Shown: positions 37,119 to 43,723 of the stretch, piece after piece | How the letters are laid out: each line of letters begins with the position of its first letter | Numbering within the stretch: the first letter of the stretch is position 1 | Source: Nitrospirota bacterium | Lineage (GTDB): Bacteria > Nitrospirota > JACRHJ01 | DNA: 44,988 nucleotides | Direction: 5' to 3' | Assembly (NCBI GenBank): GCA_021789495.1 | Contig: JAJYJM010000016.1 | Coordinates: 1 to 44,988 of the forward strand | The notes under the pieces: generated by a model | The model's input: the letters and a program-made list of their open reading frames with translations, nothing else | Database searches by the model: none | Told to the model about the DNA's origin: nothing | Program-made: the position numbers and the translations under genes

Positions 37119-37700
37119 TCAGATGTATTTTATCATGTACAGGCAGGCGTTTCCCTTTACTTTTTTGTCTATTTCCTCCTGGCTCATGCGAGAGCGGCTC
37201 GCGCCCTCCGTGGAATAGACAATCCTGTCACCTGCGGCATTTATGCAGGCTATCTGGAATATCTGGACTTTTTTGTCGCCGATCCTGAAGTGGTCGCCTA
37301 TCTGAGACCTTATCGTCTGGTGAACTATGCAGAACGGGTGGAGGACGCCTTCCTTTTTCTTGTAATAATATTTATACTTCTCGGTAACATCGTCGAAATG
37401 CTCAGGGAGCTTTCCTTCCGCCCTGAAAGAATTGAGCAGGGACAGCATCGGGCACTTCCTGAGCTGCACAAGGTTGCCGTCTATGTGCGATTCGCCTTCC
37501 AGGAGGTGGAAAGGAGACCTGCCGTTTTTGTGTTCGTCGAGGAAAATCCCAAGGTTTTCGTAGTCCCTGATTTTAATTTCTTCCGCAATATCCTTTCCCA
37601 TTTCCATAAGGTCGAAAAGTATCGCGGAAATCATTTTCCTGTCGGGGTGCAACACCTTGCCTGCCCAGTCTTTTGTAATCCTTTTCTCAAGAAGCGGCAT
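37119..37700 (-). CDS. Unknown protein with four cysteines
   Basis: A 193-residue soluble protein of no family I recognise. It starts MPLLEKRITKDWAGK. Cys occur in LRKCPMLSLL, LHPFCIVHQ, QIACINAAG and GNACLYMI; their spacing does not match a known Fe-S or zinc motif, but a metal site or disulfides are possible. The C-terminal half (VHQTIRSQIGDHFRIGDKKVQIFQIACIN) looks like a beta-rich core. The ATG at 37700 has GGAGGAAA upstream. The gene is alone between a promoter at 37745-37774 and a terminator at 37056-37083, divergent from dinG. Confidence 0.78.
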   Translation of the reverse strand: MPLLEKRITKDWAGKVLHPDRKMISAILFDLMEMGKDIAEEIKIRDYENLGIFLDEHKNGRSPFHLLEGESHIDGNLVQLRKCPMLSLLNSFRAEGKLPEHFDDVTEKYKYYYKKKEGVLHPFCIVHQTIRSQIGDHFRIGDKKVQIFQIACINAAGDRIVYSTEGASRSRMSQEEIDKKVKGNACLYMIKYI

Positions 37701-37744
37701 CTCTCTTTCCTCCCTGGAAGAATGGTAAAAAATACTCCTAAAGT

Positions 37745-37774
37745 AGTATATCGGCCAGTTGTCCAAGCTGTCTA
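37745..37774 (-). promoter_or_regulatory. Probable promoter for the Cys-containing unknown gene
   Basis: On the minus strand TAGACA (37774-37769), an 18-base spacer and TATACT (37750-37745). Confidence 0.5.
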
Positions 37775-37822: not shown

Positions 37823-37851
37823 TTGACCTCAAAGCTCTTTTAAATTAAAAT
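37823..37851 (+). promoter_or_regulatory. Promoter for dinG, leaderless geometry
   Basis: TTGACC (37823-37828), a 17-base spacer and TAAAAT (37846-37851). The dinG ATG follows after six bases and there is no ribosome binding site. Confidence 0.7.
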
Positions 37852-37857
37852 GTTTTC

Positions 37858-40488
37858 ATGCCGGAGTCCGACAGATACATAGCGCCCGAAGCGGCAGAAT
37901 ACATGCGCCGGGCTATCGCCGAGGCGGGTGGAAACGAAGTTTTTTTTCTCTGTTCCTGCGGGCGGTCGAACGCCTGCAAGGAAGACCGCAGGGTAACCGG
38001 CGCCCAGGTAATAGCGCGAGGGGACGAGGAGTGCGTCCCGGCGCTCGCGCAGGGGGCCGCAGTGGGCGATGTCGTAATCCACAACCACCCCTCCGGACTC
38101 CTGAAACCTTCCAAGCCCGACATCGAAATAGCTGGGATTCTCGGCTCTCGCGGGGTAGGTTTTTTTATAATAAACAACAAGGTAGACGAGGTATATGCCG
38201 TAGTCGAGCCTTTCGCCCGCGAGTCCGTCAAGCCCCTCGACATAGACGCCGTCGAGGCGGTGCTTAGTGACGGCGGGGCGCTCTCCAGGGCCATGAGCGC
38301 TCACGAGGCCAGACCGGGCCAGATGATGATGGCCGGGGAGGTCGCGCGGGCGTTCAATGAGGACAGGGTCGCGGTGCTTGAGGGCGGGACTGGCGTCGGC
38401 AAAAGCATGGCATACCTCGTGCCCGCGCTTTTCTGGATTATTAAAAACCGCGAACGGGTCGTGGTCTCGACCAATACCATAAACCTCCAGGAACAGCTTA
38501 TAGGAAAGGACATACCGCTTCTCGGCCATTTGTCCGGGGCAGGGCCTGAGGCCGGTCTGCCGGCGTTCAAGGCCGTGCTCGTGAAGGGACGCGGAAACTA
38601 CCTCTGCCTCAGGAAGCTTGAGCTCGCCCGGGCGGAGGGGGATTTCCTGGTTGAGGATACCGAAAGACAGGACATAGACGCGATTGCCGAATGGGCGCTG
38701 ACGACGAAGGAGGGGAGCCGGTCGGACTTGTCGTTTGTGCCGTCCGAATCCCTGTGGGAAAAGCTCAATTCGGAGTCCGACTCCTGCACGCGGCTTAAGT
38801 GCAGGTACTTCCAGCGCTGCTTCTTCTTCCGGGCGAGGCGCGAGGTCGCATCCGCGGATCTGCTCGTCGTGAACCACCACATCCTGCTTGCCGATATCGC
38901 CATGAGGGCAGAAGGCGCCGCCGCCGGTCGACCGGCGGCGGGGGACACCGCGATACTTCCCGGATACTCCCGGCTCATAATAGACGAGGGACACAACCTT
39001 GAGGACGGCGCGACGTCCTACTTCGGAAGCAGGATTACGAGGCTTGGGCTGCTCAAGATGCTGGGCCGGCTCCATCGCAAGGTGGCTCGAACCGCTTCGG
39101 ACAGGGCAGGCAGGCAGGCGGCCGGACGGCAGACCGGGACCGGTCTAACCGGCAGACCGGCGGCGAAGGGCGCGCTCCCGCTTCTTGCGTCCAGGCTTGC
39201 CGGGAAAGGCGGCTCCCGCAAGGAGAAGGGAGAGGCATGGAGAGCGCTCATAAACGAACGGATAATCCCGGCGAAGGAATCGATAGTCCTGCGGGTGAAC
39301 GAGGCGTTCGACGAGCTTTTTTATTTCATGTCGCGCGAGAGCGAAAGCCCCGGCGGGGATATAAAAATACGCCTCACCGGCAATACCAGGGGCATTACGA
39401 GCTGGGAATCCGTCGAGGGCGGCTTTGGCCGCCTTGGGACGGAGCTTGCGAATCTCACACGTTCATTAAACTCGCTCTGCAAGGAGATTAAGGACGAGGC
39501 GCTTGGGGATAAGATCGACGAACCGCTTGTCGAGCTTAAGTCCATAACCGAGAGGCTCGAGGCCGCAAACGCACAGACGGACAACCTGCTTAGGGGTGAC
39601 GGGGACGGCCTGATACGATGGGTGGAGGCCCCCGCGCGGAAGACGGGAAGGGTCATCTCCCTGTGCGGCTCGCCGCTTAACGTCGCCTCCGAGATAAAGT
39701 CCCGGATATACGACAGGCTGAAGACGGTAATAATTACGTCAGCGACGCTTACGGTAAAGAAGAGATTCGATTACTTAAACCGGCGCATAGGGCTTGATTT
39801 AATCCCCGGAGACAGGCTCGTCGAGGGCGTGTTCCCCTCCCCGTTCGATTACAGAAACCAAGTTATAATCTGCATACCGCGGGACGTGCCCGACCCCGGC
39901 GCGAGGGAGTTCGGAGCCGCGCTTAACGCCCTTCTGCGGGAATCCCTCGATATTTCGCGCGGGCGGGCGTTTGCTCTGTTCACGTCCTTCAGAATGCTGG
40001 AGAGCGCGTACCAGGAGCTTTTGCCGTTCATGCAAAGCGCGGGCATCAGGGGCTTAAAACAAGGAGATTCGCCCCGGCACAGGCTCCTCCAGGACTTCCG
40101 GACGCACCCGAAGGCGGCGCTTTTCGGCACGGACAGCTTCTGGGAGGGCGTGGACGTAACCGGCGATGCGCTCTCGAACGTTATAATTACGAAGCTCCCC
40201 TTCTCCGTCCCGGACGACCCCGTCATACAGGCAAGACAGGAGGAGATAGAGGAAAGTGGCGGGAATCCCTTCATGGAATATATCGTCCCGCAGGCGGTCA
40301 TAAAGTTCCGCCAGGGCTTCGGGCGGCTCATCAGGAGCAGGACGGACAGGGGCTCAATCATGGTCTTCGACAGGCGCATCATCGAGAAGAATTACGGGCG
40401 GGAGTTCCTGGAATCGCTCCCGGACGGGCGGCTCGTCACGGGGCCATCGATGGTGGTATTTGAGAAGGCGCGGGAGTTTTTCACATGA
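37858..40488 (+). CDS. dinG: DinG-type Fe-S helicase with N-terminal JAMM domain
   Basis: An 876-residue protein. Residues 1-125 form a JAB/RadC-like domain with a full JAMM zinc motif: E27, H75-N-H77, S85 and D88 (IHNHPSGLLKPSKPD). From about 150 a superfamily 2 DinG/XPD helicase follows: Walker A GGTGVGKS (176-183); Fe-S ligands C250, C310, C315, C321; motif II DEGH (376-379) in place of the usual DEAH; motifs FGTDSFWEGVDVTGDAL and QGFGRLIRSRTDRGSI. It should unwind DNA, R-loops or similar structures; the JAMM part could be a metalloprotease or a structural module. Residues 230-236, 353-363 and 417-437 come from palindromic elements. It overlaps cvpA by four bases. Confidence 0.92.
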   Translation: MPESDRYIAPEAAEYMRRAIAEAGGNEVFFLCSCGRSNACKEDRRVTGAQVIARGDEECVPALAQGAAVGDVVIHNHPSGLLKPSKPDIEIAGILGSRGVGFFIINNKVDEVYAVVEPFARESVKPLDIDAVEAVLSDGGALSRAMSAHEARPGQMMMAGEVARAFNEDRVAVLEGGTGVGKSMAYLVPALFWIIKNRERVVVSTNTINLQEQLIGKDIPLLGHLSGAGPEAGLPAFKAVLVKGRGNYLCLRKLELARAEGDFLVEDTERQDIDAIAEWALTTKEGSRSDLSFVPSESLWEKLNSESDSCTRLKCRYFQRCFFFRARREVASADLLVVNHHILLADIAMRAEGAAAGRPAAGDTAILPGYSRLIIDEGHNLEDGATSYFGSRITRLGLLKMLGRLHRKVARTASDRAGRQAAGRQTGTGLTGRPAAKGALPLLASRLAGKGGSRKEKGEAWRALINERIIPAKESIVLRVNEAFDELFYFMSRESESPGGDIKIRLTGNTRGITSWESVEGGFGRLGTELANLTRSLNSLCKEIKDEALGDKIDEPLVELKSITERLEAANAQTDNLLRGDGDGLIRWVEAPARKTGRVISLCGSPLNVASEIKSRIYDRLKTVIITSATLTVKKRFDYLNRRIGLDLIPGDRLVEGVFPSPFDYRNQVIICIPRDVPDPGAREFGAALNALLRESLDISRGRAFALFTSFRMLESAYQELLPFMQSAGIRGLKQGDSPRHRLLQDFRTHPKAALFGTDSFWEGVDVTGDALSNVIITKLPFSVPDDPVIQARQEEIEESGGNPFMEYIVPQAVIKFRQGFGRLIRSRTDRGSIMVFDRRIIEKNYGREFLESLPDGRLVTGPSMVVFEKAREFFT
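38548..38568. repeat. Palindromic element in dinG, copy 1
   Basis: Core 38551-38564, GCCGGTCTGCCGGC. Read GAG GCC GGT CTG CCG GCG, giving EAGLPA between HLSGAGP and the conserved FKAVLVKGRGNYLC segment. Confidence 0.75.
38918..38941. repeat. Palindromic element in dinG, copy 2
   Basis: A 24-base perfect palindrome centred on GGTCGACC, with CCGCCG arms in place of the usual GAAG/CTTC. It encodes AAAGRPAAG just before the ILPGYSRLIIDE strand of helicase motif II. Confidence 0.8.
39105..39165. repeat. Degenerate palindromic cluster and GGCA tract in dinG
   Basis: A short tandem GGCA run (about 39105-39118) is followed by overlapping units: GCCGGACGGC, CCGGTCTAACCGG (39140-39152) and GGCAGACCGGC. 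They encode a Gly/Arg/Ala/Thr-rich stretch at about 417-437 in a loop of the helicase accessory region. Slippage and element insertion both seem to have acted. Confidence 0.65.
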
Positions 40489-41066
40489 ATTCACTCGACC
40501 TGATATTACTCATAATAATCGGCGTCTCCCTGGCCGTAAGCACGTTCCGGGGCGCAGTGCGGGAGATTTTCTCGCTGGGCGGCGTAATCGCGGGCTTCAT
40601 ACTGGCATCGAGGTATTACGAAAAGACCTCGCTTGGCGTCTTTCGGCTCACGTCCGACCCGAAAATAAACGACATCATAAGCTTCCTCGTAATCTTCATC
40701 TTCTCAGCCGTCATAATAAGCTTCATCGGCGGCCTGCTCTCCCACGCCGTCAATAAATCCGGCTTCAAGGTATTAAATACGCTGCTGGGCGCCTTTGTCG
40801 GCGCGATAAAAGGGGTGTTGATTGCCTCGCTCGTCCTGTACGCCCTGCTGGTCTTCTTCCCGGCAAACAGCGCAATGTTCACAAAATCAAAGACTTTCCC
40901 GTATGCCGTAGAGATCTCGAAGCTCATCTCACCCATAGGCCCGAAGTTCTTCCGCGAGGAACTGGACAAAAAGCTTGGAGAGACCGGGAAGCGCGGGCCT
41001 GCCTCCGGAGGAAAGCCCCCAGGCCCAAAACAGCCTCCGAAGCCTCCGGGGAAAAATAAAAATTAA
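40485..41066 (+). CDS. cvpA: CvpA family membrane protein
   Basis: A 193-residue inner-membrane protein of the CvpA/colicin V production family. Four membrane segments fit the pattern: LDLILLIIIGVSLAVSTFRGAVREIFSLGG, then GFILASRYY, a long segment near 62-82, and AFVGAIKGVLIASLVLYALLVFF. A cytoplasmic helix and a Pro/Lys/Gly-rich tail follow. CvpA proteins are linked to envelope homeostasis; the mechanism is not settled. It overlaps dinG by ATGA, so they are co-expressed. Confidence 0.92.
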   Translation: MNSLDLILLIIIGVSLAVSTFRGAVREIFSLGGVIAGFILASRYYEKTSLGVFRLTSDPKINDIISFLVIFIFSAVIISFIGGLLSHAVNKSGFKVLNTLLGAFVGAIKGVLIASLVLYALLVFFPANSAMFTKSKTFPYAVEISKLISPIGPKFFREELDKKLGETGKRGPASGGKPPGPKQPPKPPGKNKN

Positions 41067-42034: not shown

Positions 42035-43723
42035 TCAACCGTACAAATCCGGGTTCAGTATCTTGTCCACGGTCGTCCTGGCCAGGACGAGCGGCGCGAT
42101 GAAGGTATTGGCCATGTCCTTTTCGACGTCGCGCTTGTTCGACAGGAAGGTTATCCTGTCCTGCATCCTGTCGCGCAGGAACGTAAGATAGTCAACGTTT
42201 CTCTTGGGCTTGTATTTCTTCTCGTAGTCCTCTCCGAAGAGTTCCGCCCCGTTCATCGGCACCTGAAGCCCGTGGAACGTCCGCCACTCGCGCCACTGGA
42301 TGTTCCCTCGCACAAGCTCCGTGACGATTAAAAGCGAAAGCTCCTTCGGGATGTCCACGAGGCTCCCCGGAAGCCCGAAGGCGTGCGTGTTCATGATGTA
42401 GCACTCGCAGCCCATCTTGAAGAGCTTCCTGAACTGCTCGCAATCCTCAAGGAGCGAATGCACGCGGAAGGGATTTGCGAAAGGCTCTATTACCAGCTTT
42501 TCAAGCTCCTTCGCGTCCACGTTCTCGACGCCCTTCGCGCGAAGCGTCGAGAGCGACGCGCCCATCGCCACGGCAAGAGACGACCCCTTCACCTTGCTTA
42601 TCGGCGGGAGGGACGTGTCCTTCTGGAGCCATATCACCATGCTCGGCCTCTCGCAGGAGTCCGCATGGTGGAACATGTCGCGGCTCTTCAGGCACCTGCC
42701 GTTGTCGTTTCTTATGTCCTCGTTGACCATCTTCCGGCAGAGCGTTTTGCCGCCGTCTTCCGAGTGGCACGTAACGGCGACATTCTGCGCGGAGTAGAAG
42801 TATTTCAGTATCGGGTCGTCGAACTTCGTCGCGTCCGTCTTGTCAAAGAGCGATGGCTCCAGCGCAACGGAGACGTCGTGTTCAAGGTCTATCAGAAACG
42901 CGTCGTCGTGAATGACCGTAACCTTCTCGTCCTTCTTAAGAGTCCCTTCGTGGTCGAGGCTGTTGGTTATCGACGACTTCCCGGAGCCGGACAGGCCGAA
43001 GACGGCGATGGGACGGTTGTTGCCGATTTTCTTGATGCCGCCGTGGCAGGCGACCATGTTGTGCCGCACGCCTATCGTCCAAGCAATGGTGAGAGTGCCT
43101 TTCTTCCTTTCTCCGAAATATCTTAGTCCCAGGATCGCTATGCAGTTCTGCATCTCGTCGATTATCACAAGCCCGTTTGGGAACTCCGGGTGAGACCACT
43201 CCGGGTCGGCGAACGCTATTATGTCCGGCTCGTTTATCTTCCTTGACTTCGGGTAGCCGTCGCTCCAGGGCTTTATGAACGGGCAGAAGTTTATACCCCA
43301 GTCCATCATGTTCTTCGCGTCCGTCTCCGGGCTTATAAGATGCGCCTTGACCATGAAGTCCTGGTGAAGGCCGACGATGCCTTCGAGGTGCAGGCCGGGG
43401 CGCCGGTTGAACTGGTATACCGCCTCCATGAGGATGGCGTGGATTTTGTCCTTTTTCGCCTTGTCGAAGTTCCGGACAAGGAGCCTCGCCCTCGCCGTCC
43501 TGCCCACGACTCCGCCGTCGTTGGACACCAGCACCTTCGCGTCCGCCGGAAGCCCGAACTGGGCCGGGTTGTACATCGGCTGGTCGGTGCGCATTACCTC
43601 GGGCTGCTTAATCGCCAGGCTGTAAAGCTCCGCCATGTCTGTGCGCCTTACGGAATTCGCGTACATAGCGGATTCGATAATCGCCCTCCACGGAGACTCC
43701 GGTATAGAGTTTAACGTCGCCAT
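42035..43723 (-). CDS. Divergent ATP-type phosphoenolpyruvate carboxykinase
   Basis: A 562-residue protein of the PEP carboxykinase (ATP) fold. The special P-loop is GLSGSGKS (243-250; family GLSGTGKT) and the metal pair is D273-D274 (VIHDDAFLID). Downstream are WLQKDTSLPPISKVKGSSLAVAMGA and RTFHGLQVPMNG. The N-terminal half diverges strongly from E. coli PckA, and the segment before the P-loop has Cys and His (MVACHGG). It probably interconverts oxaloacetate and PEP at the base of gluconeogenesis, but a changed substrate or nucleotide is possible. It is monocistronic; the ATG at 43723 has GAGGAGG upstream. Confidence 0.85.
   Translation of the reverse strand: MATLNSIPESPWRAIIESAMYANSVRRTDMAELYSLAIKQPEVMRTDQPMYNPAQFGLPADAKVLVSNDGGVVGRTARARLLVRNFDKAKKDKIHAILMEAVYQFNRRPGLHLEGIVGLHQDFMVKAHLISPETDAKNMMDWGINFCPFIKPWSDGYPKSRKINEPDIIAFADPEWSHPEFPNGLVIIDEMQNCIAILGLRYFGERKKGTLTIAWTIGVRHNMVACHGGIKKIGNNRPIAVFGLSGSGKSSITNSLDHEGTLKKDEKVTVIHDDAFLIDLEHDVSVALEPSLFDKTDATKFDDPILKYFYSAQNVAVTCHSEDGGKTLCRKMVNEDIRNDNGRCLKSRDMFHHADSCERPSMVIWLQKDTSLPPISKVKGSSLAVAMGASLSTLRAKGVENVDAKELEKLVIEPFANPFRVHSLLEDCEQFRKLFKMGCECYIMNTHAFGLPGSLVDIPKELSLLIVTELVRGNIQWREWRTFHGLQVPMNGAELFGEDYEKKYKPKRNVDYLTFLRDRMQDRITFLSNKRDVEKDMANTFIAPLVLARTTVDKILNPDLYG

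Follow-up and report, generated by a model that had tools for sequence, protein, structure and literature searches.

A RadC-like DinG in Nitrospirota: an Fe-S helicase fused to a JAB domain with a conserved JAMM site

Introduction

DinG is a 5′-3′ Fe-S helicase, the direction being that of E. coli DinG. One gene of the window, by which we mean the whole 44,988-nucleotide stretch of Nitrospirota DNA analyzed here, encodes a helicase of this type with a JAB/RadC domain at its N-terminus. It raises the question of what a putative metallohydrolase does when it is permanently attached to a DNA motor.

A first-pass annotation, made from the sequence alone, pointed out the fusion, which had already been described. 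Section 3.8 of a 2025 review (PMC11981726) names the architecture 'RadC-like DinG', presents one AlphaFold3 model and states that 'no research has been conducted' on it. The traits given in that section are a RadC-like domain with E, H, H and D residues, the MD1, MD2, Arch and Fe-S domains, and an organism without HolC. Passages of a second paper (PMC5512222) mention RadC fusions to DinG/RAD3-like helicases and credit them to an earlier paper. A literature search on 'RadC-like DinG' returned PMC11981726 only; the main text of that paper contains none of the stems Fusobacter-, Nitrospir-, Spirochaet- and Gemmatimon-. The window protein is a RadC-like DinG and belongs to a known, named but unstudied subgroup. 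Our additions to what is in print are counts per phylum, placement on a helicase tree, conservation of the JAMM residues and relatives with a dead site.

Results

The fusion gene and its surroundings

The boundaries of the reading frame are exact, and the following features were mapped to it and to its downstream neighbor.

37858-40488, + strand: RadC-like DinG of 876 aa, N-terminal JAB/RadC domain and Fe-S DinG/YoaA helicase (open reading frame, Pfam and NCBIfam matches)
37870-38208, + strand: RadC-like JAB domain, residues ~5-117 (PF04002 above cut-off; AlphaFold2 model aligned to MPN/JAMM and RadC structures)
37936-37938, + strand: E27, the JAMM glutamate (E in 100/102 distinct relatives)
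38080-38088, + strand: H75-N76-H77, with H75 and H77 predicted zinc ligands (each H in 101/102)
38110-38121, + strand: S85-x-x-D88, with D88 the predicted third zinc ligand (S85 in 101/102, D88 in 100/102)
38209-38307, + strand: linker, residues 118-150, two helices in the model (structure models)
38308-40485, + strand: SF2 XPD/DinG-type helicase, residues 151-876 (YoaA NCBIfam match; VIA-align to DinG 6FWS)
38380-38406, + strand: Walker A/motif I EGGTGVGKS, residues 175-183 (alignment; core invariant)
38605-38820, + strand: Fe-S region with C250, C310, C315 and C321 (alignment)
38983-38994, + strand: motif II DEGH, residues 376-379 (alignment; same motif in E. coli DinG)
39940-40425, + strand: Helicase_C_2, second motor domain (Pfam match)
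40312-40335, + strand: motif VI QGFGRLIR, residues 819-826 (alignment)
40485-41066, + strand: neighboring CvpA/Colicin_V family membrane protein (Pfam, 107 bits), the start codon of which overlaps the helicase stop

A promoter-like element, TTGACC-17-TAAAAT, lies within positions 37823-37858 and ends 6 bases upstream of the ATG, and no Shine-Dalgarno sequence is visible before the ATG in the same interval; the mRNA of the fusion gene may therefore be leaderless. An antisense reading frame of 411 aa (37840-39075, − strand) covers the 5′ half of the gene and is probably a high-GC shadow. The host genome (2.08 Mb, 97% complete) contains three RadC loci besides the fusion gene, and a profile search of it revealed no second Helicase_C_2 match.

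Neighbors were clustered for long-ORF loci among L020-L043, for locus L019 and for the window, and were listed for loci whose proteins reach 500 aa or more. No neighbor gene was common across phyla at the loci compared, and an operon partner was rejected on this ground. The large clusters appeared to consist of antisense shadow ORFs or of the fusion gene's own upstream reading. The CvpA gene comes after the fusion gene in the window and at loci L021 and L022, and lies 323 bases further on at L023; among the loci compared this adjacency is limited to the Nitrospirota family of the window. A 215-aa reading frame at 37119-37766 (− strand) has no Pfam, NCBIfam or PADLOC match and is kept upstream of the fusion gene within the genus. 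The product of 42035-43723 (− strand, 562 aa) matches PEPCK_ATP with 52.8 bits over residues 175-490, and the gene occupies the same place at L021 and L022.

No Cas family, as would be expected at a type IV CRISPR CasDinG (Csf4) locus, was found by Pfam among 14 neighboring proteins between 26.8 and 44.6 kb. A defense-system reading was likewise rejected: PADLOC produced helicase cross-matches only, its typeIV_DinG matches reflecting the shared motor.

The N-terminal domain has a predicted JAB fold

The first-pass annotation had proposed a JAMM motif at E27, H75-x-H77, x7, S85, x2, D88 and a RadC/JAB domain in the first 125 residues, ahead of a full Fe-S helicase. The residues are as claimed, with N76 between the histidines, and the domain is present, although its span is about 5-117. 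PF04002, the RadC-like JAB family, matched the first 146 residues with 28.4 bits (E 1.7e-6; curated cut-off 22.1) and the whole 876-aa protein with 23.9 bits (E 4.2e-5), so that the profile check suggested for the N-terminus gave a significant match. PF04002 also matched 19 of 20 full-length relatives, the window protein counted, at E <= 0.01. The whole-length RadC models TIGR00608 and NF000642 reached 19.7 and 23.8 bits, against cut-offs of 133.85 and 180. The domain has in common with stand-alone RadC (2QLC; PF04002) the JAB fold and the HNHPSG-x4-S-x2-D motif, whereas stand-alone RadC has no helicase fused to it and the window domain scores just 20-24 bits on the RadC family models (cut-offs 134-180).

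An AlphaFold2 model of the domain, built from a 24-row alignment, has a JAB fold (mean pLDDT 86.5) with the JAMM/MPN+ motif E-HxH-x7-S-x2-D placed in it. With this model, the top Foldseek match was RadC 2QLC (E 3.2e-6). Structural alignment with VIA-align ranked Rpn11 (Z 9.3, rmsd 3.1, 107 residues), BubCD (Z 9.2, rmsd 3.1, 113 residues) and CSN5 (Z 9.0, rmsd 3.1, 108 residues) beside RadC 2QLC (Z 8.4, rmsd 3.2, 103 residues). As far as the model can tell, these four are tied or nearly tied, lying within about one Z unit. By sequence, the domain profile matched RadC 2QLC (E 3e-6) and, weakly, AfJAMM. Judged from the predicted fold, likeness to deubiquitinases equals likeness to RadC, and a nucleic-acid substrate is not favored.

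A loop at about residues 31-43 (window 37948-37986), between the first two strands, is rich in Cys, Arg and Ser and was modeled with low confidence. Its length varies with CGRS/T-like units within the genus, and it is absent from the other aligned relatives.

The helicase part

The best model for the helicase part was NCBIfam YoaA (NF053712) with 561.3 bits, short of the 680 required for the equivalog. Helicase_C_2 matched with 159 bits, and all four Fe-S cysteines (C250, C310, C315 and C321) were present in the alignment. The protein has MD1, MD2, Arch and Fe-S domains and is YoaA-like, as RadC-like DinGs are. In a full-length model (pLDDT 82.3) the helicase part aligned to E. coli DinG 6FWS with Z 36.9 (rmsd 6.5, 642 residues) and to S. 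aureus DinG with Z 35.3 (rmsd 4.3, 635 residues). Together these data bear out the proposed fusion of a RadC/JAB domain to a full Fe-S helicase, with motor motifs and Fe-S residues predicted intact. E. coli DinG (6FWR/6FWS) and YoaA have the motor domains and Fe-S cysteines in common with the window protein; E. coli DinG differs in having no N-terminal JAB, and the window protein falls below the NCBIfam equivalog cut-offs of both YoaA and DinG.

Motif II does read DEGH rather than DEAH at residues 376-379, as had been pointed out, but this is nothing out of the ordinary: E. coli DinG 6FWR has 'ldegh' aligned there, and 11 of 80 aligned rows, the window counted, carry DEGH. We rejected it as a special feature.

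In Myxococcota-type members (L028, L032, L036 and L196-L200) Thr or Ser stands in place of the second Fe-S cysteine (C310 of the window protein), a change found in 7/7 Myxococcota rows and 1/3 unassigned rows; for L028 it was read from a separate alignment. Ser also takes the place of the first or second Fe-S cysteine in some rows from Planctomycetota and Gemmatimonadota.

Distribution of the fusion

Whole genomes were searched with a 24-row profile of the domain, the threshold outside the phylum of the window being E <= 1e-9. In Nitrospirota, a full-length match was found in 5 of 295 genomes (195-209 bits, reading frames of 603-887 aa). These five belong to a single family, in which the gene is fused in 5 of the 6 genomes searched; the remaining Nitrospirota matches were all at or below 43.5 bits. 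Elsewhere, matches were obtained in 189/195 genomes of the class of Geotalea, 113/150 of Gemmatimonadota, 104/247 of Spirochaetota, 30/140 of Myxococcota, where two matches (G767, G793) sit in short reading frames and resemble stand-alone RadC, and 21/149 of Planctomycetota, where one (G899) does so. Most matches among those listed lie in reading frames of ~780-1,100 aa, some of them cut by contig ends. In all, the fusion was seen in hundreds of genomes and in at least six phylum-level groups. With the fused form recurring to this extent, the domain and its JAMM motif are not a chance occurrence.

In other Nitrospirota genomes, RadC-like matches were seen in long open frames of 813 aa (L055, G033:C10:19163-19402), 557 aa (L058, G250:C120) and 553 aa (L059, G108:C34), which may be other RadC fusions.

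Origin of the gene

A helicase tree of 80 rows was built with a quick method after 12 of 92 candidates had been dropped as duplicates, near-duplicates or fragments. The family of the window grouped with Desulfuromonadales, two Planctomycetota and one further bacterium (support 98), a placement that long branches and uneven letter composition make less than firm. The JAB-bearing helicases were separated from 15 JAB-less Nitrospirota DinGs (SH-aLRT 94), and a tree uniting Nitrospirota DinGs with and without JAB, as expected for vertical descent from the ordinary DinG of the phylum, was rejected (p-AU 0.000434). This suggests that the whole RadC-DinG gene was gained, or lost elsewhere in Nitrospirota, rather than fused anew in this lineage.

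A mobile origin of the fusion gene was rejected on searches with a domain-plus-linker query. Viral contigs gave 93 pattern matches, none confirmed as a relative, both the viral-contig and the genome-contig scan being limited to proteins containing the seed words used. No relative was found in 50,697 phage records, and 72,556 plasmid records gave nothing but one 2.1-Mb Fusobacterium record. NZ_CP084075.1 of Fusobacterium vincentii (2.1 Mb), a plasmid entry carrying a single annotated feature, looks like a chromosome.

Conservation of the metal site and relatives that have lost it

Loss of the zinc ligands in all relatives would have spoken against the JAMM assignment; nearly all retain them. 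E27, H75, H77, S85 and D88 were all intact in 100 of 102 distinct relatives, the rows having been chosen mainly from the best and worst scores and not randomly. Two rows were omitted from this count as short, L200 (contig end) and L134 (dead site); with L134 the count is 100/103. Among the low-scoring rows, 35 of 37 were intact at the five JAMM residues, while E22, G24, N26 and R54 had drifted there. In a separate check E, H, H and D were present in 109 of 115 rows; L019 and L134 account for two of the six failures, and L031 and L045 for two fragments each. Retention of the five residues while their neighbors drift makes it likely that the N-terminal domain is a metal-dependent hydrolase. The fold may account for part of the conservation, since G55, I104, P78 and N76 are kept as strongly as the ligands.

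Four relatives have kept the domain but no longer have the JAMM site: Fusobacterium vincentii L019, Spirochaetota L134, and Gemmatimonadota L194 and L195. They stand at three places on the quick helicase tree, on which three changes would account for them. Since these proteins retain the domain, catalysis is not required everywhere, and on the sequence evidence the domain serves some purpose other than catalysis, in dead-site members if not elsewhere. Pseudo-JAMM relatives are not mentioned in the main-text passages of PMC11981726 on RadC-like DinG.

In all four a colinear RadC-like domain without the site sits on a DinG-like helicase, an arrangement that can be called a 'pseudo-RadC DinG'; in F. 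vincentii (L019:5977-8445) HNHPSG is changed to RTTKPK. L031:1824-2069 begins like the RadC-DinG of L025, changes after HNH and has its remainder downstream in another reading segment; it is a broken or chimeric assembly.

Discussion

The window protein has the layout of the Desulfuromonas soudanensis RadC-like DinG presented in section 3.8 of PMC11981726, an N-terminal RadC-like domain with E/H/H/D followed by a YoaA-like Fe-S helicase. It differs from the RadC-like DinG of that section in its Nitrospirota family and in the variable Cys/Arg/Ser-rich loop at residues 32-43.

According to passages of the same review, ExoDinG and EndoDinG carry nucleases at this N-terminal position; ExoDinG, pExoDinG and EndoDinG all have an accessory domain there, theirs being of nuclease fold, not JAB. 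A conserved metal site in a slot that holds nucleases elsewhere makes a tethered hydrolase the best reading. RadC-like DinG would be a 5′-3′ Fe-S DNA helicase/translocase with an intact-site JAB in the nuclease slot. The helicase would load on single-stranded DNA, strip duplexes or R-loops and present DNA, or something bound to DNA, to the tethered metallohydrolase, which would cut the presented target, whether nucleic acid or protein. We regard this as moderately probable. Within it, we infer zinc binding, catalysis, a substrate on or beside DNA and the action of both halves on one substrate. Points against it are the four relatives without the site, the fold's equal likeness to deubiquitinases, and the fact that no neighbor kept across the compared loci hints at a substrate. 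The first-pass annotation had argued for function from a link of RadC to DNA damage, which we judged to be weak ground.

The domain could instead serve mainly for docking or nucleic-acid binding, its metal site being structural or regulatory. The four site-less relatives at three places of the tree speak for such a role, and section 3.6 of PMC11981726 describes in pExoDinG, which the pseudo-JAMM members parallel, a comparable fate of another N-terminal domain. Pure docking, however, hardly explains five residues intact in nearly every relative while their surroundings drift, and we consider this explanation rather unlikely.

We think it less likely still that the JAB domain is specifically a helicase-coupled metalloprotease or isopeptidase removing proteins stuck or crosslinked on DNA, along the lines of the protein or adduct processing suggested in the first-pass annotation. 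The best VIA-align rows are indeed the JAMM peptidases Rpn11, CSN5 and BubCD (Z about 9, rmsd about 3), and the DALI search reported in the RadC-like DinG passages of PMC11981726 found metalloproteases and no nucleases. Yet RadC 2QLC is level or almost level with these rows, the fold does not give the substrate, and across the phyla compared no adjacent gene of whatever kind is retained as a partner. In the passages of PMC5512222 on RadC-type JABs, moreover, these lack the groove for a ubiquitin tail, and nucleic-acid processing is preferred there on account of this and of the fusions.

A broader picture, which strikes us as quite improbable, would have RadC-like DinGs work as single-polypeptide machines, the 5′-3′ motor passing proteins bound to DNA, or nucleic-acid adducts, to a zinc hydrolase; they would be the bacterial equivalent of the repair of DNA-protein crosslinks by helicase plus protease, and the hydrolase site would have been lost about three times, giving a 'pseudo-RadC DinG' class like pExoDinG. 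An assembly or gene-calling error in a metagenome bin is refuted as the source of the fusion. Although their titles mark the close relatives of the window as metagenome assemblies, the fusion is present in most genomes of the family and in Geotalea sp. SG265, whose record title does not mark it as a metagenome bin, and matches occur in nearly all genomes of the class of the latter.

The biochemical role of RadC is unsettled, and here a RadC domain is permanently joined to a well-understood DNA helicase. The near-universality of the fusion in at least one class and the existence of natural 'dead' versions offer a direct route to the targets of RadC-type JAB domains, and the conservation and dead-site results allow a sharper test of their function.
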